Assembly (NCBI RefSeq): GCF_003001995.1
Contig: NZ_PVNB01000013.1
Span: 1 to 64,000, forward strand
Source: Orenia metallireducens
GTDB taxonomy: Bacteria; Bacillota; Halanaerobiia; Halobacteroidales; Halobacteroidaceae
Length of the DNA stretch: 64,000 bases
Reading direction: 5' to 3'
Positions 1 to 26,387 of the stretch are shown piece after piece. The translations under genes and the position numbers were made by a program. The notes beneath the pieces are model-generated. The model did no database searches, had not been told where the DNA came from, and saw only the letters and a list, made by a program, of their open reading frames with translations. Numbering within the stretch: the stretch's first letter is position 1; the number at the start of each line of letters is the position of its first letter.

Positions 1-487
1 GATTTTTGTACTGGGCAGTACTTATCCATTTAATCAGAGGAGTTTTCTTTTTACAACAGGTATTTTATTGAAATATCTAGATGCAACGCTAGTGAGTTTT
101 TATAAAAAACTCTGCTTTATCATAGTTTAGATTTCGCCTAAAAGGCGACCTACCTTTTTTCCATAGATAAAAAAGTAGGCAAAAAATCACTCTAAAAACA
201 GGGAAAACGCTAACACTTATAACTAAAATTTGGGCAATTAAATTAATTACAGTAATTCTATGACAAACTAATTTCTTCTCAATAGACCGCTTACTTTCCC
301 AACGAAACACGCTATACTTATATGAGAAATATTTAATTTATTTTGAATTTCTGAGTTTAAAATAATATTAGATTATGACCAAATACCGCTTGCGTTTCTT
401 TAAAGGCAAGTTCTTAATTTTCAATTAAAAAAGTGTCGCAATATACCCATTAAATCACACTTTAGCCTTGGACAGTAAATTAAAGGT
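1..487. other. Intergenic region with hairpins, no credible gene
   Basis: No convincing coding sequence is seen. A hairpin GAGTTTTT-ATA-AAAAACTC lies at 94-112, and another (CTACcTTTTTT / AAAAAAGTAG) at about 149-178. A 73-codon open frame on the minus strand (89-310) runs through these inverted repeats and has no ribosome-binding site, so it is not called. The right edge carries a dispersed repeat end (427-450). A CRE-like GGGAAAACGCTAAC sits at 201-214 but has no gene to regulate inside the window. Confidence 0.6.
427..450 (+). repeat. Dispersed repeat end (TGTCGCAATA family)
   Basis: The stretch has the core AAGTGTCGCAATATACCCAT, nearly identical to the right end of the inverted-repeat element at 35219-35339, and related to the ends at 13881-13895 and 44350-44369. 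No matching left arm is visible within 120 bp, so this is a solo end or decayed copy. Function is unknown. Confidence 0.5.
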
Positions 488-1570
488 TTATTTATTCAAT
501 ACTTCTTCAGGATTCCAACCATCAAGGATATTTTCAATAGTATACTTCTTGGCTTCTTCAGCAGTTAATTGCTTTCTTGACGGATTGATTACTGCACCTG
601 GTCCACTGTTCTGATATTCATAAAACCTTGCCTCAGTGGCCTTAAAACCTGACATATCTGTCCAGGGTTCAGCCTTGATATGGGCTCCCAGATAAGAGTC
701 TCTAACTACAACATTTGCGATTGCATATTTATCTCCACCTGGATGCCATGGTCTACCTAAGTATACTGTCCCCTCTGGAGCATCACTTAAGAATCTAGAG
801 TTGATAAACAGATATCCATAGGGCTCTTTGATCGGTGTACTGGCAGCACTGACATAGCCATTATTGACAGAAGAACCTCTATCTAAGGAATAGATTTCAC
901 AGTTATTAAAGACTGCCTGAGCAGCACCAAAGATAAAGTCAACATCACCTTCAATATAGCAGTTTTTGAAATATTGTCTGCCTGCATTGGCATATAGGGT
1001 GTCCTGATTACCTATAAATCGAACATTTTCAAAGATCATCTTATCACCTTGACTCTTGATTGCTACTGCTTGCCTCCCATCATCTTCTATACTCGGGTCA
1101 TTAAATGAGTTTTCAAAGGTCAGATTCTTAGCTATGAAATTATCAGCATACAAGAAAGCAGTTGAACTACCTGTAGTTCCATAGGTTCCACCAGCGGGCT
1201 TTGGCTTACTATTGTAATTATCATAGGTCAAGATAGTACCCTCTTTACTCTCCCCTATCATTCTGATAAAAGGCTTGCTACTAGTAATATTAATTACCTC
1301 TTTATAGATACCATCTTTGATAAAAATCTCTACAGGATAGATATTATTTTCTGAAACTGCATCAATTGCAGCTTGCACTGTCTTATAGTCTCCACTATTA
1401 TCCTTAGCAACAACTATTTTTGTTAAAGTTTCCGATGAATCTACATCTAATCTCTCTACCAACTCTACATCACCAACCTCTAATTTTATTCCATTAATAT
1501 CCTTAGAGTTATTCGCTACAACTTTGGCATAAACTCTAACCTGACCATAATAACCTATAGAATTAACCAC
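488..1570 (-). CDS. Pectinesterase (CE8) module, severed from its PL10 partner
   Basis: The ORF encodes a complete CE8 pectin methylesterase domain, which removes methyl groups from homogalacturonan. All signature blocks are present: GIYKEV, FIGNQDTLY (acid/base Asp), VDFIFG (nucleophile Asp) and YLGRPW (substrate Arg). Its first ~45 residues are not CE8 but a second copy of the PL10 C-terminus (VNSIGYYGQVRVYAKVV), as also found between PL10 and CE8 in the fusion at 4862-8581. The frame is open back to a TGA near 1652 but has no ATG there. The assigned GTG at 1570 has no Shine-Dalgarno, and there is no signal peptide. It is therefore probably a stranded module, poorly translated or not secreted. 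Family call is firm; whether it is expressed is doubtful. Confidence 0.8.
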   Translation of the reverse strand: MVNSIGYYGQVRVYAKVVANNSKDINGIKLEVGDVELVERLDVDSSETLTKIVVAKDNSGDYKTVQAAIDAVSENNIYPVEIFIKDGIYKEVINITSSKPFIRMIGESKEGTILTYDNYNSKPKPAGGTYGTTGSSTAFLYADNFIAKNLTFENSFNDPSIEDDGRQAVAIKSQGDKMIFENVRFIGNQDTLYANAGRQYFKNCYIEGDVDFIFGAAQAVFNNCEIYSLDRGSSVNNGYVSAASTPIKEPYGYLFINSRFLSDAPEGTVYLGRPWHPGGDKYAIANVVVRDSYLGAHIKAEPWTDMSGFKATEARFYEYQNSGPGAVINPSRKQLTAEEAKKYTIENILDGWNPEEVLNK

Positions 1571-1867
1571 ATCAAGCAGTGCCTGCGGATAACTGCCAGC
1601 CCAAGAGTAACCATATTGTCCCTCTTCTATTTCCCTTGAATCATGTTTTCAAATTTATCTAAATCTAATTTGTTTAGTAACTTTACATCACCATCTTTTA
1701 ATTTTATACCATTCATATTCTCAGAATTAGTCTTCACAACTTTGGCATAGACTCTACCATTACCATAATAGCCTATAGAATTAACCACATCAAGCAGTGC
1801 CTGTGGATAACTACCAGCCCAAGAATAACCATATTGTCTTTCTTCTTCTATCTTCCTTAAATCATGT
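1426..1867 (-). repeat. Imperfect ~221-bp tandem duplication of the PL10 C-terminal segment
   Basis: Two diverged copies of the segment coding for HD-RKIEE-QYGYSWAG..VVNSIGYYG..RVYAKVV..LD stand head to tail, copy 1 about 1647-1867 and copy 2 about 1426-1646. Both begin with ACATGATT. The offset of 221 bp is not a multiple of three, so copy 2 is read one frame away from copy 1; the PL10 ORF then meets a TAG within copy 2. This arrangement separates the lyase and esterase modules. Confidence 0.8.
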
Positions 1868-4446
1868 CTAATAATTCCATCCATTCCTGAGAAAATAGGT
1901 TTCATAGTCTCAATATCATAAAATCTATACCAGGTATTGCTATTTGGATCTTCATAGAAAAATTTCTTTGCTGGATCATTTCTAATATATTTTACACCTT
2001 CTATTTTAGCTTCCTCAAACCACCTTAAAGCACCGTTGACAGCTCTTTGAATTTCAGGGGTCTGATTAGGTCTATCCATCAAGAATTTGACTATTCCTAC
2101 TGATTCAGATCCTGAAATAGATGTATGCTCAAAGACACGGGCAGGTAATGGTTCATAAGTCTTAGGATCATGCTGAGCACACCATGCTGTCAGCTTTCCA
2201 TCTATCTTGACTTGAGACTTAAGAATATAGTCAACACCTTTCTCCATAGATATACTTATCTTATCAAGGTAATCTTGATCAACTAAATCACTATCAAAAG
2301 GAAACTCATGATTCAAAATATCATCAAACATATTCAAGACATTAATCATCGCATTATCATTGTAAGTGACATAGTTTGAATAATATATTATTTCGTCTGG
2401 ACGAGCCCTTTTTGGATATACCTGCGGGAAACCACCGGTTTCATACTGCATCGTAAATAGGAAATCAAGACCTTTCAAAAAGCTCTTCTTTAACTTAGGT
2501 ATTTTAGTCTCTCTATAAACTTTAGCAATAAATCTCATCTGAGTAATGGTTGCACCATTATCAATTGAACCTAATTCTTCACCATTTGGACCAAATTGTT
2601 CAGTTCTTTCAGCTTTTCCATCCCAGCGTGTCTTATACTTCTCTTCCATATGCTTAGTCCATCCACCATGGTCCATCTGCCATGATACAATATTTAAGGC
2701 AGCTTCTTTAGCCATATCTTTATCCATAATAACTTCTGGAGCTAATTTTTTAGTATTAAGTCTAGCCTCTTGATCTAAATCATCTGCAAGCTTATAAACT
2801 ATAACAGTATTGCCCTCTTTATTTCTACCTACAGCAGCCTCTTTAATTACTAAATAATCTGTTAAATCAGGTTTTAAAGCTTGCCAGTCATTCTTAGGAG
2901 CTACTATTCTAATATCATTTACATCAAACTCTTTAAAAGCTCCATCTAATGTTACTAAAACTATATTAGCAGTTACTGCTTTAGCAGATTTAATAGTAAC
3001 TTCTTCTGCTCTTTTCTCAACTTGCGTCTGAGCAGGCTCTCCTTCTATAAGAAGCCCTTTTCTTGCTAATTCTTCTAACATAAACTTATTAACAATATCA
3101 GAAACTTCCACAACTTGAATTAATTTAGCAAGAGGATCAACGTTCTCTTGAATCATATTTGAAGAAAGGACTCTTAAATGATCTATATTAGCTCCACCAC
3201 TAGCTCCTGTTGCTGTTGCTCTAATTACATTCTTACCTGCTTTAAGCATTACTGTTGTTTTAGTTAGTTGCCAATTATCCCAGGCACCTGTTGGATTAAA
3301 AGCTAAATTAGACTTTATTACATCTCTATTGACCTTAATTTCAGCTGGTCTATTCTCTGCAGAACCATTTCCATATCTGAATTGAAGTGCATATCTGCCA
3401 GTATCTGGAACATCTACAGTCCATTCCAGATATCCTCCTGGCTGATTTGGCTTATAATCTACAAAACCTAGTCCTGTATAACCTACATGCTCAGTAGCTA
3501 CAATAGTTCCAGATGATGATACGACATCTTCTGCTTCAAATAACTCATCAAAAGCATAATAGACTCTTAAATTGTCTATATTAGCTCCACCACTAGATCC
3601 TGTAGCTGTAGCTCTTATGATATTTTTGCCTGCTTTTAAGCTAACTGCTGTTTGGGTTGTTAACCAATTATCCCAAGCACCTGTTGGATTAAAAGCTAAA
3701 TTAGGCTCTACTACATTCCCATTAACCTTAACTTCAGCTGCTCTATTCTCTGCAGAACCATTTCCATATCTAAATTGGAGTGCGTATTCCCCAGAAGCTG
3801 GAACATCTACAGTCCATTCAAGATATCCTCCTGGCTGATTTGGCTTATAATCTACAAAACCTAACCCTGTATATCCTACATGTTCAGTAGCTACAATAGT
3901 TCCAAAACCTTTAGCATCCTCACTCTCTAAAACTTCATCAAAGTAATTAGAATCATAATATAATTTGAGATGATCTATATTTGCACCACCACTAGAGCCT
4001 GTGGCTGTGGCTCTTATGACATTTTCACCTGCTTTTAGATTAGCAACTGTTTTAGTTTGCTCCCAATTGTTCCAAGCTCCCGTTGGGTTAAAGGCTAAAT
4101 TAGGCTCAACTGTATCACCGTTAACCTTAATTTCAGCTGGTCTATTCTCAGAAGCACCACTTGCATAATTAAATTCAAGTACATAATCACCAGCGATTGG
4201 AACATCTACAATCCATTCAATATATCCCCCTGGCTGATTTGGTTTGTAATCGACAAATCCTGTTCCTGTATATCCTACATGCTCAGTAGCTATAATAGCT
4301 GCTGATAATGTTGATGCATCTTCTGCTTCATAAATTTTCGCTCCATCTGTAGTAATAGCTTTAGATTGAGCTTCAACTATAGATACTGGAATTGTGGTCA
4401 AAAGTAAAAAACAGATAATTAATAACAAAATATTTCTTTTTTCCAT
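1627..4446 (-). CDS. Secreted pectate lyase, PL10, with three CBM35/CBM6-like modules
   Basis: The 939-residue protein starts with a signal peptide (ILLLIICFLLLTTIPVSIVEA). Three ~125-residue CBM35/CBM6-like repeats follow (about 36-420), each with YEAED, GYTG.GFVDY, GGY.EW.VD, FNPTGAW..W and GGANIDHL. A linker domain (~430-560) leads to a PL10 pectate lyase (~565-890) with GGW.KHMEE, IDNGATITQM, YNDNAMINV, TAWCAQHDPKTYEP and SGSESVGIVKF. PL10 enzymes cleave polygalacturonate by beta-elimination. The final ~50 residues match the PL10-CE8 junction of the paralogue at 4862-8581, and the ORF ends in the duplicated segment, so a CE8 module has been lost from the chain. The start is set by GAAAGGGTG upstream of ATG. 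Export then attachment to pectin by the CBMs is inferred. Confidence 0.92.
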   Translation of the reverse strand: MEKRNILLLIICFLLLTTIPVSIVEAQSKAITTDGAKIYEAEDASTLSAAIIATEHVGYTGTGFVDYKPNQPGGYIEWIVDVPIAGDYVLEFNYASGASENRPAEIKVNGDTVEPNLAFNPTGAWNNWEQTKTVANLKAGENVIRATATGSSGGANIDHLKLYYDSNYFDEVLESEDAKGFGTIVATEHVGYTGLGFVDYKPNQPGGYLEWTVDVPASGEYALQFRYGNGSAENRAAEVKVNGNVVEPNLAFNPTGAWDNWLTTQTAVSLKAGKNIIRATATGSSGGANIDNLRVYYAFDELFEAEDVVSSSGTIVATEHVGYTGLGFVDYKPNQPGGYLEWTVDVPDTGRYALQFRYGNGSAENRPAEIKVNRDVIKSNLAFNPTGAWDNWQLTKTTVMLKAGKNVIRATATGASGGANIDHLRVLSSNMIQENVDPLAKLIQVVEVSDIVNKFMLEELARKGLLIEGEPAQTQVEKRAEEVTIKSAKAVTANIVLVTLDGAFKEFDVNDIRIVAPKNDWQALKPDLTDYLVIKEAAVGRNKEGNTVIVYKLADDLDQEARLNTKKLAPEVIMDKDMAKEAALNIVSWQMDHGGWTKHMEEKYKTRWDGKAERTEQFGPNGEELGSIDNGATITQMRFIAKVYRETKIPKLKKSFLKGLDFLFTMQYETGGFPQVYPKRARPDEIIYYSNYVTYNDNAMINVLNMFDDILNHEFPFDSDLVDQDYLDKISISMEKGVDYILKSQVKIDGKLTAWCAQHDPKTYEPLPARVFEHTSISGSESVGIVKFLMDRPNQTPEIQRAVNGALRWFEEAKIEGVKYIRNDPAKKFFYEDPNSNTWYRFYDIETMKPIFSGMDGIIRHDLRKIEEERQYGYSWAGSYPQALLDVVNSIGYYGNGRVYAKVVKTNSENMNGIKLKDGDVKLLNKLDLDKFENMIQGK

Positions 4447-4704: not shown

Positions 4705-4734
4705 TATCTAGCTACTAATATTAGTAGCTAGATA
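4705..4734 (-). terminator. Perfect 30-bp palindrome, probable terminator of the PL10-CE8 gene
   Basis: TATCTAGCTACTAAT and its exact reverse complement are fused without a spacer. It lies ~130 bp past the stop codon at 4862. The flanks are AT-rich but no long T-run follows, so it could also be a 3' stabiliser. Confidence 0.5.
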
Positions 4735-4861: not shown

Positions 4862-7800
4862 CTATTGATTAGGGTTCCAGCCAGCAAGAACATTCTCAAT
4901 AGTATACTTCTGTGCTTCTTTGGCAGTTAATTGATTTCTGGATGAATTAACTACTGCACCTGGTCCACTATTATTATATTCATAGAATCTTGCATTCTCA
5001 GCTTTAAAGCCTGACATATCTGTCCATGGTCTAGCTTTAATATGAGCTCCAAGATAAGAATCTCTAAAGACAACACTTGCTATTGCATATTTATCGCCAC
5101 CTGGATGCCATGGTCGACCTAAATATACTGTACCATCTGGTGCATTGCTTAGCAGCGTTGAATTTATAAAGAGATATCCATAAGGCTCTTTGATCGATGT
5201 ACTTGCAGCAGTAACATATCCATTATTTGAAGATGAACCTCTATCTAGTGAATAAATCTGGCAATTATCAAATACTGCCTGAGCATCACCAAAGATAAAG
5301 TCAACATCTCCTTCAATATAACAATTATTAAAGTATTGTCTTCCTCCACTAGTATATAAAGTATCTTGGTTACCTATAAAACGAACATTTTCAAAATACA
5401 TCTTGTCACCTTGAGTCTTGACTGCTACTGCTTGAGTTCCTCCACCTGCTACACTTGCTTCATCAAAAGAATTTTCAAAAGTAAGGTTCTTAGCTACAAA
5501 ATTATCTGCATATAAGAAAGCACTTGCACTTCCTGTAGTTCCATAAGTTCCACCAGCAGGTTTCTTTTTCTTATTATAATTATCGTAAGTTAATACAGTA
5601 CCTTCCTTGCTCTCTCCTATCATTCTGATAAAAGGCTTACTACTAGGAATGTTAACTACCTCTTTATAGATACCATCCTTAATAAATATCTCTACTGGAT
5701 AGATATTATTTTCAGGAACTGCATCAATTGCAGCTTGCACTGTCTTATAGTCTCCACTATTATCCTTAGCAACAACTATTTTGGCTATAGCCTCAGCTTT
5801 AGCTAAATCTAATTTCTTTACTAACTCTACCTTGCCATCTTTTAGTTTTGTTACATCCTTATCTTTTGTATCATCATCCATAACTTTAGCATAAACTCTA
5901 CCTCGACCATAATAACCTATAGAATTTACTACATCAAGAAGTGCCTGTGCATAGTCTCCACCCCAAGAATAACCATATTGTCTCTCTTCTTCTACCTTTC
6001 TAAGGTCATGCTTAATTACTCCATCACGCCCTGAGAAAATAGGTTCCATAGTCTTTAAATCATAAAATCTATACCAAGTATTACTATTAGGAACATCATC
6101 ATAGAAGAATATTTTCAGTGGATCATTTCTAACATATTTTACATTTTCAAGTTTAACTTCCTCAAACCATTTTAAAGCACCATTTACAGCTCTTTTAATT
6201 TCAGGGGTCTGATTAGGTCTAGCCATTAGGAATTTAACTATTCCTACTGATTCCTTACCTGAAATAGATGGATGCTCATAAGAACGTGCATATCGTGGTT
6301 CATAAGTCTTAGGATCATGTTGGGCACACCATGCTGTCAGTTTTCCATCTACCTTAATTTGAGACTTAAGGATAAAGTCAACACCCTTTGCTAAAGAGTC
6401 CTCAACCTTAGCAATATTATCTCGATCAAGCAAATCACCATCAAAAGGATATTCTCTACTAGCAATATCATCAAGCAGATTCATTACATTAATCATAGCA
6501 CCATCATTAAATGTAACAAAATTTGAATAGTATATTCTCTGATCAGGTCTACCTCGTCTAGGATATACTTGTGCAAAACCACCAGTAGGATACTGTAATT
6601 TATACAAGAAGTCTAATCCTTTTAAGAAGCTTTTCTTTAATTCAGGCATCTTAGTCTCTCTATAAACCTTAGCAATAAAACGCATTTGAGTAATAGTCGC
6701 ATCATTATCAATTGTACCTAATTCTTCACCGTTTGTACCAAACCAGTGAGAACGTTTAGCTTTTCCATTCCAACGTGTTTTATATTCTTCTTCCATATGT
6801 TTATCCCAGCCACCATGGTCCATCTGCCATGACACAATATCTAAAGCAGCTTTTTTAGCAGCCTCTTTATCCATGGTAACTTGTGGTTCTTTTTTAGTAT
6901 TAAGTCTAGCATTTTCATCTAAATTTTCTGCTAACTGATAAATTATAGCAGTATTACCCTCTTTATTTGTACCTACAGCAGCCTGCTTGATTAATAAGTA
7001 ATCTGTCAAATCAGGATTTAAAGCATCCCAATCATTCTGTGGAGCTGCTATTCTAACATTATTTACATCAAAATCTTTAAAAGCTCCATCTAGTGTTACT
7101 AAAACTAAATTAGCAGACAATGCTTGAGCAGATTTAATAGTAACTGCTTCTGCTTTTTTCTCAACTTGTGCTTGAGAAGACTGTCCATCTACAAAAAGTC
7201 CTTTTCTTGATAATTCATCTAGCACAAGCTTATTAACTATATCAGAAGCTTCTACAACTTCAATTGATTTAGCAAGAGGATCAACATTCTGTTGAATCAT
7301 ATTTGCAGAAAGAATCCTTAAATGGTCTATATTAGCACCACCACTAGATCCTGTTCCTGTTGCTCTAATTACATTCTCACCTTTATTAAGAACTACTGTT
7401 GCTTGAGTTAATTGCCAATTATCCCAAGCTCCTGTGGAATCAAAGGCTAACTCAGGCTCTACTATATCACCATTAACCTTAATTTCAGCTGGTCTGTTTG
7501 CTGAAGCACCATTTCCATATCTGAATTGAAGCATATATTTTCCATCAACTGGAATATCAGCAGTCCACTCCAGATATCCTCCTGGCTGATTTGGCTTATA
7601 ATCTACAAAGCCTGTTCCAGTATATCCTTTATGCTGAGTAGCTACAATAGTTCCAGCAGATGAGGACACATCCTCTGCCTCAAGTAACTCATCAAAAGCA
7701 TAACAGACTCTTAAATGATCTATATTAGCACCACCACTAGCACCTGTTGCTGTTGCTCTAATTACATTCTTACCTGCCTGTAAGTTAACTGTTGTTTCTG

Positions 7801-8581
7801 TTGTTACCCAATTATCCCAAGCTCCTGTTGAATCAAAAGCTAAGTTAGGCTCTACTACATCACCATTAACCTTAATTTCAGCTGGTCTGTTGGCTGAAGC
7901 ACCATTTCCATATCTAAATTGAAGTGTATATTTACCAGCAGCTGGAATATCTACAGTCCATTCCAGATACCCTCCTGGCTGATTTGGCTTGTAATCTACA
8001 AAGCCTGTTCCAGTATAACCTTCATGCTCAGTACCTACAATAGTACCAGATCCTTTAGCCTTCTCAGCCTCTAAAATCTGATCAAAATAATTAGAATTAT
8101 ATTCTAATTTAAGATGATCTATATTAGCACCACCACTAGAACCTGTTGCTGTTGCTCTAATTACATTCTTACCTGCTCTTAAAGTAGTAACTGTTTGAGT
8201 TTGCTTCCAACTATCCCAAGCCCCTGTTGGATTAAAAGCTAAATTAGGCTCTACTACATGACCGTTAACCTTAATTTCAGCTGGTCTATTCTCTGAAGCA
8301 CCACTTGCATATCTAAATTGAAGTTCATACTCTCCAGCCTTTGGAACATCTACAATCCATTCCAGATATCCTCCTGGCTTATTTGGATTGTAATCTACAA
8401 AGCCTAGTCCTGTATACCCTTGATGTTCAGTAGCTACAATAGTTCCAGCTGATGAGGACGCATCTTCTGCTTCATAAATTTTTCCTCCATCCCCAGCAGC
8501 CAAAACCTCAACTGTAAATGCTGAAATCATAATAGAAAGTAACAAACATACAATTAACACCAAACTACTACTTTTTTTCAT
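4862..8581 (-). CDS. Secreted bifunctional pectate lyase (PL10) - pectinesterase (CE8) with three CBM35/CBM6-like modules
   Basis: This 1239-residue protein combines, in order: signal peptide (1-29), CBM35/CBM6-like modules at about 36-160, 168-293 and 299-423, a linker/beta domain (430-565), PL10 pectate lyase (570-900) and CE8 pectinesterase (933-1239). PL10 blocks include GGWDKHMEE, IDNDATITQM, FNDGAMINV and TAWCAQHD. CE8 residues are Asp1073 (NQDTLY), Asp1094 (VDFIFG) and Arg1156 (YLGRPW). De-esterification and beta-elimination in one chain would let it attack methylated pectin at the surface of plant debris. It is a tandem paralogue of 1627-4446, with closely similar CBM arrays and identical leader core. 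Start follows GAAAGGGTG. Domain calls are strong; exact CBM family (35 versus 6) is not settled by eye. Confidence 0.93.
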   Translation of the reverse strand: MKKSSSLVLIVCLLLSIMISAFTVEVLAAGDGGKIYEAEDASSSAGTIVATEHQGYTGLGFVDYNPNKPGGYLEWIVDVPKAGEYELQFRYASGASENRPAEIKVNGHVVEPNLAFNPTGAWDSWKQTQTVTTLRAGKNVIRATATGSSGGANIDHLKLEYNSNYFDQILEAEKAKGSGTIVGTEHEGYTGTGFVDYKPNQPGGYLEWTVDIPAAGKYTLQFRYGNGASANRPAEIKVNGDVVEPNLAFDSTGAWDNWVTTETTVNLQAGKNVIRATATGASGGANIDHLRVCYAFDELLEAEDVSSSAGTIVATQHKGYTGTGFVDYKPNQPGGYLEWTADIPVDGKYMLQFRYGNGASANRPAEIKVNGDIVEPELAFDSTGAWDNWQLTQATVVLNKGENVIRATGTGSSGGANIDHLRILSANMIQQNVDPLAKSIEVVEASDIVNKLVLDELSRKGLFVDGQSSQAQVEKKAEAVTIKSAQALSANLVLVTLDGAFKDFDVNNVRIAAPQNDWDALNPDLTDYLLIKQAAVGTNKEGNTAIIYQLAENLDENARLNTKKEPQVTMDKEAAKKAALDIVSWQMDHGGWDKHMEEEYKTRWNGKAKRSHWFGTNGEELGTIDNDATITQMRFIAKVYRETKMPELKKSFLKGLDFLYKLQYPTGGFAQVYPRRGRPDQRIYYSNFVTFNDGAMINVMNLLDDIASREYPFDGDLLDRDNIAKVEDSLAKGVDFILKSQIKVDGKLTAWCAQHDPKTYEPRYARSYEHPSISGKESVGIVKFLMARPNQTPEIKRAVNGALKWFEEVKLENVKYVRNDPLKIFFYDDVPNSNTWYRFYDLKTMEPIFSGRDGVIKHDLRKVEEERQYGYSWGGDYAQALLDVVNSIGYYGRGRVYAKVMDDDTKDKDVTKLKDGKVELVKKLDLAKAEAIAKIVVAKDNSGDYKTVQAAIDAVPENNIYPVEIFIKDGIYKEVVNIPSSKPFIRMIGESKEGTVLTYDNYNKKKKPAGGTYGTTGSASAFLYADNFVAKNLTFENSFDEASVAGGGTQAVAVKTQGDKMYFENVRFIGNQDTLYTSGGRQYFNNCYIEGDVDFIFGDAQAVFDNCQIYSLDRGSSSNNGYVTAASTSIKEPYGYLFINSTLLSNAPDGTVYLGRPWHPGGDKYAIASVVFRDSYLGAHIKARPWTDMSGFKAENARFYEYNNSGPGAVVNSSRNQLTAKEAQKYTIENVLAGWNPNQ

Positions 8582-8931: not shown

Positions 8932-10260
8932 CTATTTTAAATTGCTTATATTTGCTTTTTTGATGTTGAGATCAGTGACATTTGAAAAGACAAAACTCTC
9001 ATTAGACTCACTATTTATCTCTACATTATTTAAAGTAAGTCCATCAATATCGTCAGTTACTAAGCCCTTATTTCCACTTATACTTATATCCTCTAAAACT
9101 ATGTTCTTCATAGGTACTTCTGGTAAACCTTTCAATTCAACTGCCCTCTCTATGCCTTCACCTTTAATCCCCTTTATCTTAATATTCTCAAACTTTGGTG
9201 GAAGGTCAGTGTTTGGGTTGACAGTAGTAGAACCATAATACATATTGATTACAATAGCCTGTTCTCTAAGATTAGAGAGGTCTATATCTTCAAAGAGAAT
9301 ATTTTCAACATATCCACCTCTACCACGCATTGACTTTAGTCTAATACCACGCTCTCCCCCATTGAAGGTACAGTCATGTACATGAATATTTTTCACTCCA
9401 CCAGACATTTCACTACCTATAACTACTCCTCCATGACCTTCTTTGGCAGTACAATTTCTAATCAGAAGATTCTCACAGGGCCTATTTACCCTTCTACCAT
9501 CCTCATTTATTCCAGATTTGATGGCTATACAGTCATCTCCTGTTTCAAAATCACAATCTTCAATCAACATATTCTTACAAGAATCAGGGTTTATTCCATC
9601 GGTATTAGGACCATTGGTTATAATTTTGATATCTCTAACAATCATATTCTCACAATAAACAGGATGTATCGTCCACATCGGACCATCTACAATAGTAACA
9701 CCCTCTATTAAGATATTCTTACTATTTATCGGCTGGATAAATTGGGGTCTTAAGCCTTCTTCTATGCCAAAAACTCTATCTTCAACTGGTATACCATTAT
9801 ATTCAGCATTATATAATCTTTCAGCTGCTTGCTGCTGAGTCTGCTTCCATGACCACCAAGCTTGACCATTACCTTCTAATCTACCTGCTCCTGTGATTGC
9901 AATATTTTCACAATCTGGTGCATAAATCAGAGGAGAGTAATTATAACATTCATTTCCTTCCCAGCGAGTAAAAACTACTGGTAAATAATCATCAAATTTA
10001 TTACTAAAACGAAGTATTGCCCTCTCTTCTAACTTTAGATGTATATTACTTTTAAGATGAATTGGTCCAGTCAGCCAAACCCCTTCTGGAACAATTATTG
10101 TTCCTCCACCTGCTTGAAAACAGGTGTCTATTACTTCTTTAAATACTTCTGTATTTAAAGTCTTAGCATCATTTATTCCTCCAAAATCTGCTAAGTTATA
10201 TTTATTATCTGGAAATGAAGGTCTAGATACCTCGATTTTAAATTTATTTTCTGACATCAT
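8932..10260 (-). CDS. Intracellular polygalacturonase, glycoside hydrolase family 28
   Basis: The 442-residue right-handed beta-helix enzyme hydrolyses alpha-1,4-galacturonosyl bonds. Hallmarks are NTDGINPDSCKN, ETGDDCIAIKSG (the two catalytic Asp plus general acid), GHGGVVIGSE and RGIRLKS. The N-terminus (MMSENKFKIEVSRPSFPDNK) is hydrophilic, so there is no signal peptide and the enzyme should act on imported oligogalacturonides as an exo-acting enzyme. It lies downstream of a chemoreceptor and the KDG genes on the same strand. The start follows GGGAGGCAG. Exo-mode is inferred from location, not from residues. Confidence 0.9.
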   Translation of the reverse strand: MMSENKFKIEVSRPSFPDNKYNLADFGGINDAKTLNTEVFKEVIDTCFQAGGGTIIVPEGVWLTGPIHLKSNIHLKLEERAILRFSNKFDDYLPVVFTRWEGNECYNYSPLIYAPDCENIAITGAGRLEGNGQAWWSWKQTQQQAAERLYNAEYNGIPVEDRVFGIEEGLRPQFIQPINSKNILIEGVTIVDGPMWTIHPVYCENMIVRDIKIITNGPNTDGINPDSCKNMLIEDCDFETGDDCIAIKSGINEDGRRVNRPCENLLIRNCTAKEGHGGVVIGSEMSGGVKNIHVHDCTFNGGERGIRLKSMRGRGGYVENILFEDIDLSNLREQAIVINMYYGSTTVNPNTDLPPKFENIKIKGIKGEGIERAVELKGLPEVPMKNIVLEDISISGNKGLVTDDIDGLTLNNVEINSESNESFVFSNVTDLNIKKANISNLK

Positions 10261-10301
10261 CTGCCTCCCTATCTAACTAGAATTAGAACCTTTAAAGATT
10301 C

Positions 10302-12017
10302 CTAACTATTTTTAAGATTAGCATTGGCTTTAATTACCCGTTCAATTAAATCCATCTGCTTGTTAGTACTCTCAACCTGCTGATTTATCTTGGAATATAA
10401 ATCACTATTATAGCTATTTACTTCTTCCATGGAATCATTGATCTCTCCAGTAAAAGCTGCTGCCTGCTGCATTTGAGCTGCAACCTCTTGACTAGATGCT
10501 GCAATATCCTGGGTCAATCGGTCAACTCTTTCACTAGAAACCACCTGCTGAGCAGCTGCATTCTTAACCTCTTCCATTTTTACAGTGACATCACTAGATA
10601 AGTCATTAATCTCATTAAAAATATTAATGATACTATTCTTATCACCTGTATTACTTATCAACACTGCTGATACCTCTTGAACTGCAGATTCTATCTCCCT
10701 ACCAATTTTTTGGACCTCTTTAGTTGCTTCTATGCTCTTATTAGCTAGCTCTTTAATCTCATAAGCCACTACTCCAAATCCTTTACCGTGCTCACCTGCC
10801 CTAGCAGCTTCAATTGAAGCATTTAATGATAATAAATTGGTCTGGTCTGTCAGCCCCATAATCTTTTCAGAGATGGTATTAATTTGAACAATACTATTTT
10901 GCAGATGCTTCATTGTATTAAGCGTATTCTGTACAAATTCATTCCCATCTTCAATCCTCTGGTCAGTCTCTTTAACCAATCTATAGGCTTCATCACCTAA
11001 TTGTGAAATAAAGTTGGCCTTATGAGACAATTCCTCAATCTTTGCTGAAACCTCTTGAATCGATAATGAAAATTCTTCTACTACCAGAGATATGTCATTG
11101 TTCCCACTTACTAGCTCTTTAACTGCACCGAAGGTATTATTCAATTTCTCATCTACACTATCAGCAACCTCTTTAATTGAATTACCAATATCGGTTATAG
11201 AATTAGCCTTAGCCGCTAATCGGTTAGTTTCACCCTTAATTTTAGAAACAACATCATTGACACCTCTAATAATTATATATCCTAAGCAGATCACTAAAAT
11301 AAAGATAATTAATCCCAATATCACAATAGTAATCATCATCTGCTTACTATTATCAACTATCTGCTTTACATTATTATTAAGCTGTTCATCATTAGAAGCA
11401 TTTAAAGCAATAATATTTAGCCTCATCTTGCTTCCAATTTTATTCATCTGCTGTAAGAGCAGTCTTCTAGAATAGCTATCCTTATCGGACTTCTTTAATT
11501 GATCATAATTGAGCCATAAATCATGATTCAATGCTTCTAAACTATCTAATTCTTCAGCCTGATCATCTTTTGTTAAATATTTTTTAAGAGAGTCTATATT
11601 GCTACTAACTGCATTATTACCATTAGCAGAAGTCAGACCTTTTACCCCAGCATGCCAACGATAGACCTCTAATAATCTATTATCAATATTCTGCAATAGA
11701 CTTTGGCTATAGTTAACTGACGGTACTATTCTCTGATTAACAACTTCAATCTTTTTAGTGATTTGAGATGTGTTATTAAAGACTATTGCTATCACTATTA
11801 TGATTCCAATCAAAATCAGGCTAAAACCAATCTCTAACCTTCTAATAATACTAATCTTATTCGATTTAAAGCCTTTATTTAATCCTCTGTGTGAGACCCT
11901 CTTCAAGATGCCAAGTTGACTTGTTTTCTCCTTTAATTGATTTAAGTTCAAGATAGGATCACTCCTTAATACTTTGATTTTTACTAGCAATTCCATCTTA
12001 TAGTCTAACTCAAACAT
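10302..12017 (-). CDS. Methyl-accepting chemotaxis protein, 4HB type
   Basis: The 571-residue transmembrane receptor has a first membrane helix (~65-83, [14 protein letters not shown]), a periplasmic four-helix-bundle-like sensor (~85-225), a second membrane helix ([20 protein letters not shown]) and a cytoplasmic MCP signalling domain with the hairpin tip [20 protein letters not shown]. It relays ligand binding to CheA/CheW. It sits between the polygalacturonase and KDPG aldolase genes, so it may sense pectin breakdown products; that is inference. The N-terminal ~55 residues before the first helix are long for the family and the upstream ATG has no clear ribosome-binding site, so the true start may be further in. 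Confidence 0.88.
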
Positions 12018-12097
12018 CTTATATTTAAATTATTATGGATAGTTAGCTTATTCTTCTTAATCTTATCTATAATTAATTCTATCTTTATCAAAAATAT

Positions 12098-12745
12098 TTA
12101 TCCTCTCGCCTCTTGTACTATCTCTATAAACTGCTTAGCCTTTTTAGTTAACTCTTCATAATTTTCATTATTTATCGCTTCTTTATCTACTAAAGAGCCT
12201 CCAGCGCCTATACCCTCTACACCTGCTTTAATAAAGTCAGCTGCATTATCAAGGTTGATTCCTCCAGTTGAAATAATGGAGATATGTGGCAATGGCCCCT
12301 TGATACTTTTAATATATTTTGGTCCTAAAACTCCTGCTGGAAATACCTTGACTAAATCTGCTCCAGCTTGATAAGCATTGATCGCTTCCGTTGGAGTCAT
12401 TACCCCTGGAATTACTACCTTAGCATAACGATTACAAACATCAATTACATCTTTATTGAAGGTAGGACAGAAGATAAATTCTGCTCCTGCTAAGATAGCA
12501 GCTCGAGCTGTTTCACCATCTAAGACTGTTCCTGCACCTACTAACACATCTGTATCCTTCATTCTAATAGACAGCTCTTTAATTACATCTAAAGCAGCTG
12601 GATTATCTAAGGTAATCTCAAAAACGTCAATGCCCCCTTTATTTAAAGCCTCAATTGCTTTAAACATCTTCTCAGTATCCATAGTTCTTAATACTGGAAC
12701 TACACCTTTATCAAGAATCTTTTTTAATTTGATCTGTTTATCCAC
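12098..12745 (-). CDS. eda: 2-keto-3-deoxy-6-phosphogluconate (KDPG) aldolase
   Basis: The 215-residue class I aldolase splits KDPG into pyruvate and glyceraldehyde-3-phosphate, the last step of galacturonate breakdown. Family marks are FEITLDNP, VGAGTVLDG, FCPTFNKDV and DLVKVFPAG, in which the Lys forms the Schiff base, and ISTGGI. Length is normal (E. coli Eda 213). KDG kinase lies 16 bp upstream on the same strand, so the two are co-transcribed. Confidence 0.95.
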   Translation of the reverse strand: MDKQIKLKKILDKGVVPVLRTMDTEKMFKAIEALNKGGIDVFEITLDNPAALDVIKELSIRMKDTDVLVGAGTVLDGETARAAILAGAEFIFCPTFNKDVIDVCNRYAKVVIPGVMTPTEAINAYQAGADLVKVFPAGVLGPKYIKSIKGPLPHISIISTGGINLDNAADFIKAGVEGIGAGGSLVDKEAINNENYEELTKKAKQFIEIVQEARG

Positions 12746-12761
12746 TGTTATTCCCCCTTAA

Positions 12762-13724
12762 TTATCTAGTAACTACCTTCTTATCACCTGTAAATATTTC
12801 AACCTCTTCCATAGTCGGTAAGCCTTCCATATCACCAAGTACTGTGATAGCATAAGCACCTACTGCATTAGCCAATTTAGTAGATTCTACTAAGTCATAG
12901 CCCTTGAGCTGTCCTGCAATAAAGCCTGCTGCAAAGCCATCACCTGCTCCTACAGTGTCAACAACCTTCTCTACTTTATAGCCTGCAACTCTTTTCATAC
13001 TATCTTGATCAGCTACTAAAGCACCCTCTGCTCCCAGCTTAACTATTACAATCTCGGCACCTAAATTGAGAATCTCTTGAGCAATCTCTTCAGGGTCAGT
13101 AGTTCCTAATAACAGCTCCCCCTCTTCAATCCCTGGCAAGACAATATCAGACTTACTAAATAAATCCAACATCACTTCCTTCATCTCTTCTTGACTATCC
13201 CATAATTTCAAACGTAAGTTAGGATCAAAGGAGACTTTAACATCATTCTCTTTGGCTACCTTAATTGCTTCAAGTGCAGCCTCATAGCATGATTGGCTTA
13301 GAGCTGGAGTGATCCCTGTTAAATGTAGATACTTAGCTTGAGCAATATACTCTTGATCTAAATCCTCTGGTGTTAGCTTACTTGCAGCAGAACCATGACG
13401 ATAATAATAGACCTTACTTTCATTTAAAACACTTCTCTCCTTAAACATCAGACCTGTTGGGGCTTTATCAGTAAAGATAACTCTAGAAGTATCTACACCC
13501 TCTCCCTGGATAAAGGCTTTAATATATTGACCATGGGGATCAGCACCTAATTTACTAATCCAAGCTGAATGGTGACCTAATCTTGCTAGCCCGATTGCAA
13601 AGTTGCTCTCTGCCCCACCTAACTGCTTCTTATAATCATAAATATACTTTAAATTCCCTGTCTCTCGTGGGTTCATTAATATCATTGTTTCACCTAATGT
13701 CACTACTTCAACCACATAATACAT
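12762..13724 (-). CDS. kdgK: 2-keto-3-deoxygluconate (KDG) kinase, PfkB family
   Basis: The 320-residue ribokinase-fold enzyme phosphorylates KDG to KDPG. It shows the PfkB N-terminal block GGAESNFAIGLARLG and the C-terminal block DTVGAGDGFAAGF, with the catalytic Asp in GAGD. Start ATG follows AAAGGGG. It is followed after 16 bp by the aldolase gene, and preceded by a hairpin repeat that separates it from uxaA. Function as KDG kinase is well supported by this neighbourhood; the PfkB family also includes fructokinases. Confidence 0.92.
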   Translation of the reverse strand: MYYVVEVVTLGETMILMNPRETGNLKYIYDYKKQLGGAESNFAIGLARLGHHSAWISKLGADPHGQYIKAFIQGEGVDTSRVIFTDKAPTGLMFKERSVLNESKVYYYRHGSAASKLTPEDLDQEYIAQAKYLHLTGITPALSQSCYEAALEAIKVAKENDVKVSFDPNLRLKLWDSQEEMKEVMLDLFSKSDIVLPGIEEGELLLGTTDPEEIAQEILNLGAEIVIVKLGAEGALVADQDSMKRVAGYKVEKVVDTVGAGDGFAAGFIAGQLKGYDLVESTKLANAVGAYAITVLGDMEGLPTMEEVEIFTGDKKVVTR

Positions 13725-13800
13725 CCCCTTTCTGTTAACGTTGTAGAATAATTGAATCTATATAGATCTGTGATTTTAAAACTAAAGTTCATATAGAAAA

Positions 13801-13896
13801 AGCGATATTCAGGAGGTAGGTGGGTAGGGGTTAGAAAATCAAACTACCTAACCACCCAACCCCTAGCTGTCTAATAAAAAAAGTATCACAATATCT
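13801..13896. repeat. Intergenic inverted repeat with dispersed-repeat end
   Basis: A G-rich arm (AGGTGGGTAGGGGTTAG around 13816-13833) faces a C-rich arm (CTAACCACCCAACCCC around 13848-13863), forming an imperfect, comparatively GC-rich hairpin in AT-rich surroundings. Its right side ends in AAGTATCACAATAT (13881-13894), resembling the TGTCGCAATA repeat family. It lies between uxaA and kdgK and could act as a partial terminator or be a non-autonomous element. Confidence 0.4.
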
Positions 13897-13928
13897 ACAA
13901 GTTAAAATCATATTCTAGAACCACGTCT

Positions 13929-15434
13929 TTATAAAGTCACACCATCTTTAAAGATAGCAATCTCTCGATAATCATTGAGTTCATTCTTAGTTCTGACCTT
14001 TTTAGAGGCTAAATCGATAATATATGCAAAGAAGTCATCTGCTAGCTCTTCCATGCTAGCCCCTTCCAATAATTTACCTGCATTGTAATCGATCCAATTA
14101 TTCTTCTTATTATATAAATTAGTATTAGTTGAGATTTTAACTGTCGGTACTGGTCCGCCAAAGGGAGTTCCTCGACCAGTAGTAAATAATACAATATGAG
14201 CCCCTGCTACCGTTAAAGCAGTAGTAGCTACCAAGTCATTTCCTGGACTCTCTAACAGATTCAATCCACTTCCAGTTACCTGTTCTCCATAGAAGAATAC
14301 ATCCTGTACTATACTAGTTCCACCCTTTTGAGTACAGCCTAAAGACTTCTCTTCTAGGGTAGTAATTCCACCCTTTTTGTTACCTGGTGAGGGATTTTCA
14401 TAGATCTCTTGGTCATGGGAGATAAAGTAATCTTTAAATCCATTTATCAGCTCTATTATCTTTTCAAAAGTAGCTTGATCTTTAGCTCTATTCATTAAGA
14501 TGGTCTCAGCTCCAAACATCTCTGGCACCTCTGTTAAAATAGTCGTACCTCCATAAGCAGATAACTTATCAGAGATTCTACCTACTAAAGGATTAGCAGT
14601 TATTCCAGAGAAGCTATCTGACCCACCACATTTAAGTCCAATTTTTAACTTGGAAACTGGAATTTCTTCTGGCTTAAACTCTTTGGCATAAGCTACTAAC
14701 TCATCTATTATTTTAGAGCACTCTTCTATCTCATCCTCCACCTCTTGGAGGTTAATAAACTTGACTCTATCTTGGTCATAATCACCAATAAACTCCTTAA
14801 AATCACCAATTAAATTATTTTCACATCCTAAGCCAACTACTAATACTCCTGCAGCATTAGGATGTTTGACCAATCCAGCCAAAGCCTTTTGAGTCTTCTC
14901 TAAATCTCCACCTAATTGGGAACATCCATAGGGATGGGGAAAGGCATGAATAGCATCAATCTCTCCTGCTTCTATCTCTGCGCTATACTTCTGTTCAGCC
15001 ACCATCGCCATCTTCTCTACAGGTTTGTTAATACAGCCTACAGTATTGATAATCCAGATCTCATTTCTAATCCCTACATCTCCATTCTTTCGTCGATAAC
15101 CAATAAAGTTAGGGATCTCATCTTGCTTAGCTAATTCAGTCAATTGTGGTTGATAATCATACTCTAGCTTTCCTTCTAAATTGGTCTTTAAGTTATGGGT
15201 ATGAACCCACTGACCTTGCTTTATATCTTCAGTCAATACCCCAATAGGATATCCATATCTGATAATATTCTCACCTTTAGAGATATCCCTTAAAGCTACC
15301 TTATGCCCTGTAGGTATATCATCTCTAGCTTTAAATACCTCATCATCTATATTCACATTCATACCTTCTTTAATATCATCTAAAGCAATAGCAATATTAT
15401 CTTGCTCATTGATTACTAGTACATTGGCTTCCAT
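13929..15434 (-). CDS. uxaA: Altronate dehydratase, UxaA family
   Basis: The 501-residue protein has an N-terminal SAF-type domain (~1-95, IALDDIKEGMNV, IPTGHKVALRDI) fused to the large C-terminal dehydratase domain (GYRRKNGDVGIRNEIW, HPYGCSQLGGD, GLKCGGSDSFSGITANP, GAHIVLFTTGRGTPFG). It converts D-altronate to 2-keto-3-deoxygluconate in an iron-dependent reaction. Length matches full-length UxaA. The start is supported by AAAGGAGG. With uxaB and uxaC in the same island it completes the isomerase pathway. A galactarate/altronate relative with another sugar acid as substrate is possible but less likely here. Confidence 0.93.
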   Translation of the reverse strand: MEANVLVINEQDNIAIALDDIKEGMNVNIDDEVFKARDDIPTGHKVALRDISKGENIIRYGYPIGVLTEDIKQGQWVHTHNLKTNLEGKLEYDYQPQLTELAKQDEIPNFIGYRRKNGDVGIRNEIWIINTVGCINKPVEKMAMVAEQKYSAEIEAGEIDAIHAFPHPYGCSQLGGDLEKTQKALAGLVKHPNAAGVLVVGLGCENNLIGDFKEFIGDYDQDRVKFINLQEVEDEIEECSKIIDELVAYAKEFKPEEIPVSKLKIGLKCGGSDSFSGITANPLVGRISDKLSAYGGTTILTEVPEMFGAETILMNRAKDQATFEKIIELINGFKDYFISHDQEIYENPSPGNKKGGITTLEEKSLGCTQKGGTSIVQDVFFYGEQVTGSGLNLLESPGNDLVATTALTVAGAHIVLFTTGRGTPFGGPVPTVKISTNTNLYNKKNNWIDYNAGKLLEGASMEELADDFFAYIIDLASKKVRTKNELNDYREIAIFKDGVTL

Positions 15435-15455
15435 GTGCTTAGCCTCCTTTATATA

Positions 15456-15499
15456 ATCATCAATTTAACTTTAAATATATTTAAAGTTAAATTGATGAT
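15456..15499. promoter_or_regulatory. Perfect 44-bp palindrome upstream of uxaA
   Basis: The half ATCATCAATTTAACTTTAAA TA is followed by its exact reverse complement with no spacer, ending 22 bp before the uxaA ATG. It lies between the oxidoreductase gene end (15530) and uxaA. It may be a terminator or mRNA processing/stabilising hairpin, or an operator. There is no adjacent T-run. Confidence 0.6.
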
Positions 15500-15529
15500 A
15501 GTAATTAGTAACTAGTCCCTTTTATCAAA

Positions 15530-16786
15530 CTAAAACTTAACTAAATCATTAATCTTAATAAGCTGTTCCTTTTCAATAGATCTTCTAGCAGCAATTCCAG
15601 TCAAAATAGACATAGCACCATCTATTCCGCCTGCTTTCCGATTAAGAGGATCTTCTTGATCTGTATCAAGGAAGATATCCTTAAGCAAGCGAATATCTCC
15701 ACCTCCATGCCCTCCTTTAGAGACCTCTACTTCTACCTCATAGGATTCAGCAAAGAGAGGGAATACTTCTAAGCGAACATTATTATCAAGGGTTCTTCTC
15801 TCTAACTTACCATCATGTCCGCTAATATATGAAGCTTCAATAACATCCTGTTCAATTCTACCTTTTGTACCAACAAAAGCAACCTTATAGCCTTCATAAG
15901 GAGCATAATTGTTCAAAGAATAGCTCAATAATGCTGAGTTATCATACTTAACAGTAAGAGCTCTTGTATCCCAGATATTAATCTCTGGTGAGAAGACACA
16001 CCTATCACGGAAATAACCATCCTCTGCTTCAGCCTCTAGATAAAGACCAGTTAGTTTCTTAGAAGAGCTCATATCTAAATAGAACTTACAGTCATCAGCT
16101 ACATCACAAGTCTTACATCTTAATCGATATTGGAAGGTCTCAGGCTTATAAAATCTCTTTTCCCCAAAAGCAAAGACCTCTTCTGGCTTGGCATCTAACC
16201 ACCAATTTACTAAATCAAAATGATGGGTTGACTTATGTACCCACAAAGAACCTGAATTTCTCTTTTCACCATGCCACCTACGATAATAATCTGCTCCATG
16301 AGTAGTGTCTAAGAACCAATGGAACTCTACCAAGGTTAAATCTCCAATAACCCCATCTTGGATCAACTCTTTAACCTTAGAACGATAAGGAGAATAGCGA
16401 TAATTAAAGGTTACGATCAAATCATTACCTGTCTCTTCCATGGTATCGATTATCTCTTGACACTTCTCTTCATTGGTGGTCATCGGCTTTTCTGTAATTA
16501 CCTTTAGCCCTTTCTTTAGCCCCTTAATGATATATTCATGATGATGAGAATCTTTAGTAGTAACAACAATTCCTTCAATCTTTTCTGTTTCAAGCATCTC
16601 TTCAAACTGATAAGGTTGATAGGTAGGTAAATTCAATCCTAAAGTCTTGTTTACATAATCCATTCTACTTTGGTTCAAATCCATCAACGCCACTAATTCA
16701 TTCTCTTTACTGATCTCTTCATTCTTTACAAGTGCTTCATAATACATTGAAGATCTCGATCCTGTACCAATAATTGCATATCTCAT
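15530..16786 (-). CDS. Gfo/Idh/MocA family oxidoreductase
   Basis: The 418-residue NAD(P)-dependent enzyme has the Rossmann start RYAIIGTGSRSSMYYEAL and the family motif TEKPMTTNEE (EKP), with HKSTHHFDLVNWW in the C-terminal domain. A cysteine cluster, C-KTCDVADDC near residue 225, is unusual for the fold and could bind metal. Substrate cannot be read from sequence; position next to uxaA suggests a uronic acid or derivative. It is divergent from an AraC regulator, which may control it. Confidence 0.85.
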   Translation of the reverse strand: MRYAIIGTGSRSSMYYEALVKNEEISKENELVALMDLNQSRMDYVNKTLGLNLPTYQPYQFEEMLETEKIEGIVVTTKDSHHHEYIIKGLKKGLKVITEKPMTTNEEKCQEIIDTMEETGNDLIVTFNYRYSPYRSKVKELIQDGVIGDLTLVEFHWFLDTTHGADYYRRWHGEKRNSGSLWVHKSTHHFDLVNWWLDAKPEEVFAFGEKRFYKPETFQYRLRCKTCDVADDCKFYLDMSSSKKLTGLYLEAEAEDGYFRDRCVFSPEINIWDTRALTVKYDNSALLSYSLNNYAPYEGYKVAFVGTKGRIEQDVIEASYISGHDGKLERRTLDNNVRLEVFPLFAESYEVEVEVSKGGHGGGDIRLLKDIFLDTDQEDPLNRKAGGIDGAMSILTGIAARRSIEKEQLIKINDLVKF

Positions 16787-16816
16787 AAATTTATCCCCCT
16801 ATATCTTTTTAAAGAG

Positions 16817-16845
16817 ATTTTATATAAAAAAACGAATAAAAACAA
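16817..16845 (-). promoter_or_regulatory. Promoter of the Gfo/Idh/MocA-uxaA direction
   Basis: TTGTTT (16840-16845) and TAAAAT (16817-16822) are separated by 17 bp on the minus strand, about 30 bp before the oxidoreductase ATG. Its -35 lies 20 bp from the -35 of the divergent AraC promoter. Confidence 0.6.
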
Positions 16846-16865
16846 GACATATATTGTTTATTTCA

Positions 16866-16894
16866 TTGTTCTTCTACATTTTTTGTGGTAGAAT
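16866..16894 (+). promoter_or_regulatory. Promoter of the AraC-type regulator
   Basis: TTGTTC (16866-16871) and TAGAAT (16889-16894) are spaced by 17 bp. The repeated ATTGTT (around 16853 and 16865) between the two divergent promoters is a candidate binding site for the regulator. Confidence 0.55.
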
Positions 16895-16925
16895 AATAAA
16901 CAATTACTATTTAGGAGGAATATTA

Positions 16926-17741
16926 ATGGCAAGTTATTTAATCAATCATATCAAAAGAACTGGTGGACCTCATACTATGTCTGCAAAACATTATCATAAT
17001 AGCTATGAATTATATTACTTATTGAATGGAGAAAGATATTATTTTATTAAAGATCAGAGATATCATATTAAGAAAGGAAATATTGTTATTATCAATAAAA
17101 ATATTCTCCATAAAACTATTGATACTGATAACCCTAACCATGAAAGAATATTAATTGAATTTAACGAAAAATTATTAGAATCACTTGACCAAAATATAAC
17201 TGATATAAATTTATATAAATGCTTTAATAATGATAATACTGTATTATCACTAGATATTGAAGAGCAATTATGGCTAGAAGAAAAACTCTTTAAAGTCTTA
17301 AAAGAAAAGAAGCATAAACAAAAAGGCTATAATACTTATATAAAAATTCTTATCACTGAAATATTGATCTTTTTAAATAGAATATCACTAAAATATAAAA
17401 AAGAAGCTACCTATTCTGATCCTATCAATACAAGAATATTAAATATTGTAACATATATTAATAAACACTATAATGACAATCTAACTCTAGAAAAAATCAG
17501 CAATAAATATCACTTAAGTAGTTCTTATCTATGCAAGACCTTTAAAGAAGTAACTGGCTTTAATTTTGTAGAGTATAAGAATCATATTCGTGTTAAAGAA
17601 GCTCAGAGGTTATTACAACAGACTAATTTAAATATTACAGATATAGCTAGCAAAGTAGGTTATAATAATCTAACTCATTTTGGACGTGTATTTAAAAGTA
17701 TTACTGGTTATTCTCCTATGAAATATAGAAATTTAAACTAG
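16926..17741 (+). CDS. AraC family transcriptional regulator
   Basis: The 271-residue protein has a cupin-type sensor domain (~1-140, HYHNSYELYYLLNGE) and a C-terminal double helix-turn-helix AraC domain (~170-270, YLCKTFKEVTGFNFVEYKNH and DIASKVGYNNLTHFGRVFK). The ATG at 16926 is chosen because GGAGGAATATTA precedes it; the longer frame to 16854 would include the promoter. It is the only plus-strand gene in the sugar island and diverges from the Gfo/Idh/MocA gene, so it probably activates that operon when a pectin-derived sugar binds the cupin. Effector is unknown. Confidence 0.92.
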   Translation: MASYLINHIKRTGGPHTMSAKHYHNSYELYYLLNGERYYFIKDQRYHIKKGNIVIINKNILHKTIDTDNPNHERILIEFNEKLLESLDQNITDINLYKCFNNDNTVLSLDIEEQLWLEEKLFKVLKEKKHKQKGYNTYIKILITEILIFLNRISLKYKKEATYSDPINTRILNIVTYINKHYNDNLTLEKISNKYHLSSSYLCKTFKEVTGFNFVEYKNHIRVKEAQRLLQQTNLNITDIASKVGYNNLTHFGRVFKSITGYSPMKYRNLN

Positions 17742-17794
17742 CGTCATCTTTAATTTAAATTTCTATTTATTTGCTTTGATTAATTAATAAAATA

Positions 17795-17868
17795 GCCTCT
17801 CCCAATCATAGTATTATAGGTCGTTGTGGAATTTTACCTATTCATCAAAATAAATCAATAAGAGAGGC
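17795..17868. repeat. Short element with 7-bp inverted ends
   Basis: GCCTCTC (17795-17801) and GAGAGGC (17862-17868) bound a 74-bp segment between the converging araC-type and uxaC genes. It may be a decayed insertion-element end pair, or simply part of a bidirectional terminator; evidence is weak. Confidence 0.25.
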
Positions 17869-17915
17869 CAAACTTCTACAATCTATAGTACATCAAGATT
17901 TCTATAAGATAAATC

Positions 17916-19280: not shown

Positions 19281-19323
19281 TAAATTACCTCCTGTTAAAA
19301 TCAATTTTATTTAATTATCTAAC

Positions 19324-20859: not shown

Positions 20860-20929
20860 CGTACTCCTCCTTTAATTCAAAATTTATTAAAGTTTTAGTA
20901 TTATAAACAAGCATCATCGATTAGTAAGA

Positions 20930-21724: not shown

Positions 21725-21825
21725 CTCTATACCTCCTTTTAGCTATTATCAAATGTTGCTTTTATCAATTAAACTCAACTGATAAATCATCTATAATTAA
21801 CTTAACTATTAAAATTATTTACAAG

Positions 21826-21887
21826 AGAAAAAGGGGCTATAACTCTATTTTGATATCATCTGCTAGATATTATTAATTATACCCCTT
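21826..21887 (-). terminator. Terminator after the ene-reductase gene
   Basis: AAGGGG-TATAA (21876-21887 read on the minus strand) pairs with TTATAgCCCCTT (21831-21842), followed by TTTCTCTT. The loop is long (~33 nt). It lies downstream of the gene ending at 21911. Confidence 0.5.
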
Positions 21888-21910
21888 CACAATAATCCAA
21901 TCTTCTCTAC

Positions 21911-23242: not shown

Positions 23243-23262
23243 ATTATCAAATCCTTTCTTAT

Positions 23263-25406: not shown

Positions 25407-25409
25407 TGA

Positions 25410-26360: not shown

Positions 26361-26387
26361 TTATTTCCCCTCCTTGAATCAATAATC

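Follow-up and report, generated by a model that had tools for sequence, protein, structure and literature searches.

Gene fission can result when part of a gene is duplicated or when tandem paralogues recombine. The locus of Orenia metallireducens described here resembles such fissions in general, in that one multidomain gene appears as two open reading frames (ORFs) with a repeated boundary, but departs from them in that the second ORF has no evident start signals and may be a pseudogene in the making. The modules concerned are a PL10 pectate lyase and a CE8 pectinesterase. A search of the open-licence literature by title and start of abstract returned no paper on the fusion or fission of PL10 and CE8. 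A described counterpart of the detached esterase is Pem of Paenibacillus amylolyticus 27C64, presented in the available portion of its report as a cytoplasmic CE8 enzyme and the sole pectin methylesterase (PMC7267202). As described in that portion, Pem is like the split CE8 in being leaderless and in occurring beside secreted pectate lyases, including a PL10; it differs in having its own gene and in its size (51.0 kDa), and the two are likened here by description (PMC7267202).

Results

The window, the whole 64,000-base stretch analyzed, forms the start of a 104,120-base contig (C13) in a genome of 95 contigs and 4.1 Mb. From position 8581 downward, its minus strand carries the intact fusion gene, the lyase gene, and the CE8 ORF in that order, with about 400 bases between the two pectinase genes (Table 1). 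The sequence-only reading had taken the lyase and esterase ORFs together to match the architecture of the intact fusion, and this was borne out: all three ORFs lie where it had placed them, the CE8 frame is open from 1648, and Pfam domains are complete on both sides of the break (domain-level statements here are Pfam profile matches). The intact fusion shares module order, three CBM6/35 modules, leader, and linker with the split pair, and differs in being unbroken. Both PL10 matches of the genome fall in the window, with no third PL10 present, and the one remaining CE8 of the genome occupies a 452-aa frame on contig C8.

Table 1. Features of the split pectinase locus (window coordinates)
Feature	Position	Strand	Basis or remark
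Dispersed repeat sequence at the contig end, downstream of CE8	1..487	.	Window 1 = base 1 of contig C13
CE8 pectinesterase ORF, 360 aa from first listed start GTG 1570, leaderless	488..1570	-	Pfam and start inspection
66-nt tract identical to intact fusion (5717-5782)	1355..1420	-	5' end of CE8 domain, beside copy 2 end
Copy 2: PL10 domain end and linker, frame of CE8, 85% identical to copy 1	1426..1646	-	Alignment, repeat tool, Tandem Repeats Finder
Upstream extension of open CE8 frame, encodes PL10 domain end (HDSREIEEGQYGYSW...)	1571..1648	-	Preceded by TGA 1649-1651
PL10 pectate lyase, 939 aa	1627..4446	-	Translation and Pfam profiles
Overlap of the two open frames	1630..1648	-	Between CE8-frame stop (1649-1651) and lyase stop TAG (1627-1629)
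Copy 1: PL10 domain end and linker, lyase frame	1647..1867	-	Alignment, repeat tool, Tandem Repeats Finder
Intact paralogue, one ORF of 1239 aa: leader, three CBM6/35, PL10, CE8	4862..8581	-	Translation and Pfam profiles

A pectin and uronate catabolic cluster lies upstream (8932-27779), with matches to GH28, KDPG aldolase, PfkB kinase, altronate dehydratase, UxaC, a mannitol-type dehydrogenase, and an ABC sugar transporter; it also holds an AraC-type regulator, and a methyl-accepting-type protein assigned by reading. The GH28 (8932-10260) has no evident leader. Between the two pectinase genes, a thirteen-pair palindrome followed by T-rich sequence (4705-4734) is terminator-like on the plus strand. 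At the other end of the locus, bases 1-487 match the genome 42 times, counting the self-match; one of these matches is 91% over 93-439 on contig C12, and the first bases of contig C13 nearly equal the start of contig C40. A short piece at about 428-474 is present many times across the genome.

The split-off lyase retains a complete Pec_lyase domain (PF09492 1-291/292, residues 590-884, E 2.8e-104) behind a signal-peptide-like N-terminus and three CBM6/35 modules (CBM_6 and CBM_35, three stretches each). It has AAAGGGTGAAAA upstream of its ATG in common with the intact fusion, and the CBM6/35 triplets of the two genes (3169-4334 and 7317-8478) form an array with a 393-bp period. Truncation follows the linker, the final residues, MIQGK, being translated out of copy 2 of the repeat described below. 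Judged by its leader, binding modules, and full PL10 domain, this is presumably a normal secreted enzyme.

The split CE8 domain is likewise complete (PF01095 2-297/298, E 4.8e-57). Alignment with eight other sequences shows that it retains QDTL, DFIFG, and LGRPW, which we take to be the sites of the catalytic Asp, Asp, and Arg. With 310 codons free of stops and a replacement rate that is not raised, the module does not present as a pseudogene. The esterase had been read as lacking both a start codon with ribosome-binding site and a signal peptide. The latter holds: by a crude rule, the maximal 12-residue hydropathy within the N-terminal 40 residues of the split CE8 (L051) is 0.79. The former needs amending, as two candidate starts exist, and only these: GTG 1570, with AGG 11 nt upstream, and TTG 1462, with GAGGT 13 nt upstream. 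Compared with those of the lyase and fusion genes, their ribosome-binding sites are weak and their codons less usual. Promoter-like sites in the region scanned near CE8 number 54, against 44.1 in shuffles; no convincing promoter for full-length CE8 was found there, the best nearby minus-strand match (1426-1397) lying at the start of the domain. A separate promoter for full-length CE8 was rejected, the sites being little above shuffles. By eye, an out-of-frame ATG after the lyase stop, preceded by GAGGG, opens a short ORF (within 1559-1630) that stops just beyond GTG 1570, a possible coupling relay.

The junction of the two genes is marked by a head-to-tail repeat, so that a segment of the gene is present in two adjacent direct copies, as in a partial tandem duplication. 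The duplicated segment of about 221 bp reported from sequence alone was confirmed by DNA-level alignment: the copies have diverged (177 identities, 31 mismatches, one 3-nt gap), and their local alignment scores 252 against a maximum of 29 in 500 shuffles. Tandem Repeats Finder independently detects the pair (1439-1867, period 218, 2.0 copies). Counted from the start side, the copies lie 221 apart as far as the 3-nt gap and 218 apart beyond it (218 by the repeat tool); neither number is divisible by three, and the gap itself is in frame. Against the intact fusion, copy 1 matches at 172/211 aligned bases and copy 2 at 156/194. The second copy had been described as read in another frame. This is correct for the lyase, whose frame enters copy 2 out of register and stops about 20 nt inside it, but not for copy 2 itself, which keeps the original fusion frame with CE8.

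Synonymous divergence was obtained from Nei-Gojobori counts by our own script, without codon-bias correction. The dS between copies 1 and 2 is 0.31, and the dS to the intact fusion is 0.455 for copy 1 and 0.70 for copy 2; between the two genes it is 0.70 for PL10 and 0.73 for CE8. Since the copies are closer to each other than either is to the intact fusion, they separated after the two paralogues did. Divergence is uneven along the genes, being about half as great in the CBM half as in PL10 and CE8 (chi-square 32.9, p 1e-8), a pattern that suggests gene conversion or exchange between the paralogues. The 66-nt identical tract, whose left border is the authors' choice, is of a length reached in 1/5000 codon shuffles, while a run as long as the 27 consecutive same-residue codons arose in 13/20000; these values point to probable recombination between the two paralogues.

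Within the repeat, four of the six base differences between copy 2 and copy 1 across the 26 codons of the PL10 end are synonymous, the remaining two both lying in the final codon; the 25 codons from QYGYSW on show no residue change. The chance of this under neutrality is 0.068 with only the two changes assignable to copy 2 and 0.005 when two unplaced changes are added, the one changed codon corresponding to two of the unplaced or copy-1 differences. Across the repeat as a whole, differences fall 16, 12, and 8 times at third, first, and second codon positions, a bias that is not significant (p 0.26). Together these patterns weakly indicate that copy 2 may have been under constraint before the break.

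The detached esterase has evolved no faster than its intact counterpart. In a maximum-likelihood tree of 28 CE8s, branch lengths are 0.092 for the split and 0.096 for the intact module, and dN/dS for the pair is 0.128. Simulated neutral decay since the copies parted gives 54-70 amino-acid changes (80-100 under a faster clock) on the split branch alone, with a mean of 3.3 (4.5) stops and stop-free runs in 3.2% (1%) of cases. The actual count, with the two branches combined, is 49 differences and not a single stop. Equal branches and few changes relative to the neutral expectation argue that CE8 was under selection for most of that time. Polarized against outgroups L018, L019, and L025 only, 17 replacements fall on the split branch and nine on the intact branch, with 26 assigned to neither (p 0.17). 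Departures from residues conserved in at least 5/7 outgroups number five in the split CE8 and one in the intact. This surplus in the split CE8 would fit the onset of decay or chance. The event had been proposed to be old or a product of recombination between paralogues. Recombination is plausible in view of the identical tract and the uneven synonymous divergence, while an old, long-dead esterase was rejected, the domain being full, free of stops, and without an increase in rate. A recent rather than an old break is favored.

A survey of relatives for an intact fusion at this position, proposed with the sequence-only reading, offered no direct comparison: neither of two congeners has a PL10 or a CE8 domain (0/2), and the relatives surveyed included no second genome carrying this locus. 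CE8 matches occur in 3/60 relatives searched, the own genome apart. The PL10-CE8 protein as query matches 3/58 other class members, all over the CE8 part only, and 26/397 other genomes of the phylum sample. Among the phylum-sample loci fetched (best matches only, about 4 kb each), both modules occur in one locus only in the own genome. A further scan of genome contigs yielded six loci, two of which hold both modules. One, from a Cellulosilyticum MAG (L018; 6021-10025, 1334 aa), has the unbroken CBM-PL10-CE8 order of the intact fusion and is 50% identical to it in PL10 and 61% in CE8; unlike the window genes with their three CBM6/35 modules, it has two CBM-like stretches, by reading of the translation. 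The other, from Metabacillus niabensis (L021; 3249-8492, 1747 aa), likewise has both modules in a single protein whose N-terminus is leader-like, but in the reversed order CE8-PL10 and with other accessory stretches.

By identity, the closest stand-alone CE8s are L025 (63%), from a class-level relative, and L019 (62%), from Paenibacillus silviterrae; both are leaderless. By reading, the former has as neighbors a GH28-like ORF and one resembling an AraC-type regulator. In the CE8 tree, the two stand next to the window's pair, and the fused Cellulosilyticum CE8 falls outside them. The inner forks have support of 82/71 and 95/84, and the five sequences group together at 97/94. As the fused Cellulosilyticum CE8 is nearly as close, a leaderless ancestor does not follow. 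The leaderless label is given by a crude hydropathy rule set by eye; under it, eight of 24 CE8 rows from other genomes, duplicates L058-L067 excluded, are leaderless (L019, L025, L026, L034, L045, L046, L052, and L053). L038, at 1.27, would qualify as well; L040 lacks a start codon ahead of its domain, and L050 is fragmentary. The tree labels L040 as leaderless and L038 as not, and omits L047 and L050.

Discussion

What is new at this locus is that both modules are complete, that CE8 shows no faster evolution in the split copy than in the intact gene, and that a 66-nt identity tract lies beside the junction. We see an about even chance that one of two tandem fusion genes was recently broken by recombination between paralogues, with CE8 now a poorly expressed or unexpressed remnant. 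Two tandem genes, each for a secreted CBM-PL10-CE8 pectinase, would have been the starting point. In the downstream gene, recombination between paralogous copies would have produced two diverged copies of the PL10 tail and linker with a net frame shift, most simply through a deletion that brought the linker of one fusion gene up against the PL10 end of another such gene, since lost, or alternatively through partial tandem duplication. The lyase would then end in the linker and remain a complete secreted enzyme; the CE8 module, having lost its leader and own start, would probably be made poorly or not at all. The recency of the break, together with an intact neighbor that covers the function, would explain why CE8 has not yet decayed.

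As to the origin of the repeat, deletion between tandem paralogues and duplication in place yield an identical structure. Partial tandem duplication of the 221-bp segment within a single fusion gene, with later divergence, is a possible origin, if somewhat short of an even chance, given that a tandem duplication would look exactly like this and that the third fusion gene needed by the deletion model is absent from the assembly. Such a course would, however, require either that CE8 was selected through a dS of 0.31 while disconnected or that the copies began in frame with each other and fell out of frame only afterward, and the PL10 end of copy 2, which it would make redundant, has no replacement in its first 25 codons. 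This unchanged end, the 66-nt tract, and the uneven synonymous divergence make us lean toward a deletion between tandem fusion genes, or at least exchange between the paralogues. It is very unlikely that the break is an error of sequencing or assembly, in which case the gene would really be a single ORF whose tail is duplicated, or the junction would be a false join. The assembly is a draft of a single genome, the junction lies about 1.4 kb from the contig end with dispersed repeat sequence directly downstream of CE8, and a net one-base difference within the 19-base overlap of the frames would join them; against this, the copies are only 85% identical, and the junction falls outside any stretch that they share. 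Repeat-driven misassembly was rejected as the likeliest source, the longest shared stretch being 32 nt.

A different question is whether the esterase is still made. It is rather unlikely in our estimate, though a serious rival reading, that the break is a functional fission in which CE8 is produced as a separate leaderless protein acting in the cytoplasm on imported methylated oligogalacturonides, with translation from GTG 1570 or TTG 1462 that relies on weak initiation or is coupled to the lyase stop, which precedes the GTG by 56 nt. An intact CE8 without rate increase would agree with this, as would the leaderless state of the two nearest stand-alone CE8s, among which the window's CE8s fall in the tree, the GH28 without evident leader and uronate pathway in the window, and the cytoplasmic precedent in P. 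amylolyticus 27C64, as far as the available part of its report describes it (PMC7267202). Poor ribosome-binding sites, less usual start codons, and the lack of a convincing promoter speak against it, and some 15 to 50 residues derived from the linker and PL10 end would be attached to the protein. That such a break would be adaptive, the lyase staying outside, the esterase becoming cytoplasmic, and the intact tandem paralogue keeping the secreted form, we hold to be unlikely. Programmed frameshifting at the overlap, giving the full fusion at a low level, is extremely improbable: the CE8 frame is -1 relative to the lyase frame over a 19-nt overlap, but no X-XXY-YYZ heptamer occurs in the last 30 lyase codons, and a canonical -1 slippery site was rejected.

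We regard this as an ordinary kind of gene break and a clear case of a multimodular polysaccharide-degrading enzyme taken apart at a linker, with an intact paralogue as a nearby control. If the esterase is still made, a secreted module can turn intracellular in one step; if it is not, the locus represents the first stage in the loss of a redundant module. Were the break adaptive, it would be a gene fission moving one catalytic module to another compartment, caught early.

Elsewhere in the window, a 122-bp tandem repeat of 2.4 copies with 97% match (57073-57368) lies near the RNase P RNA gene (56561-56928).
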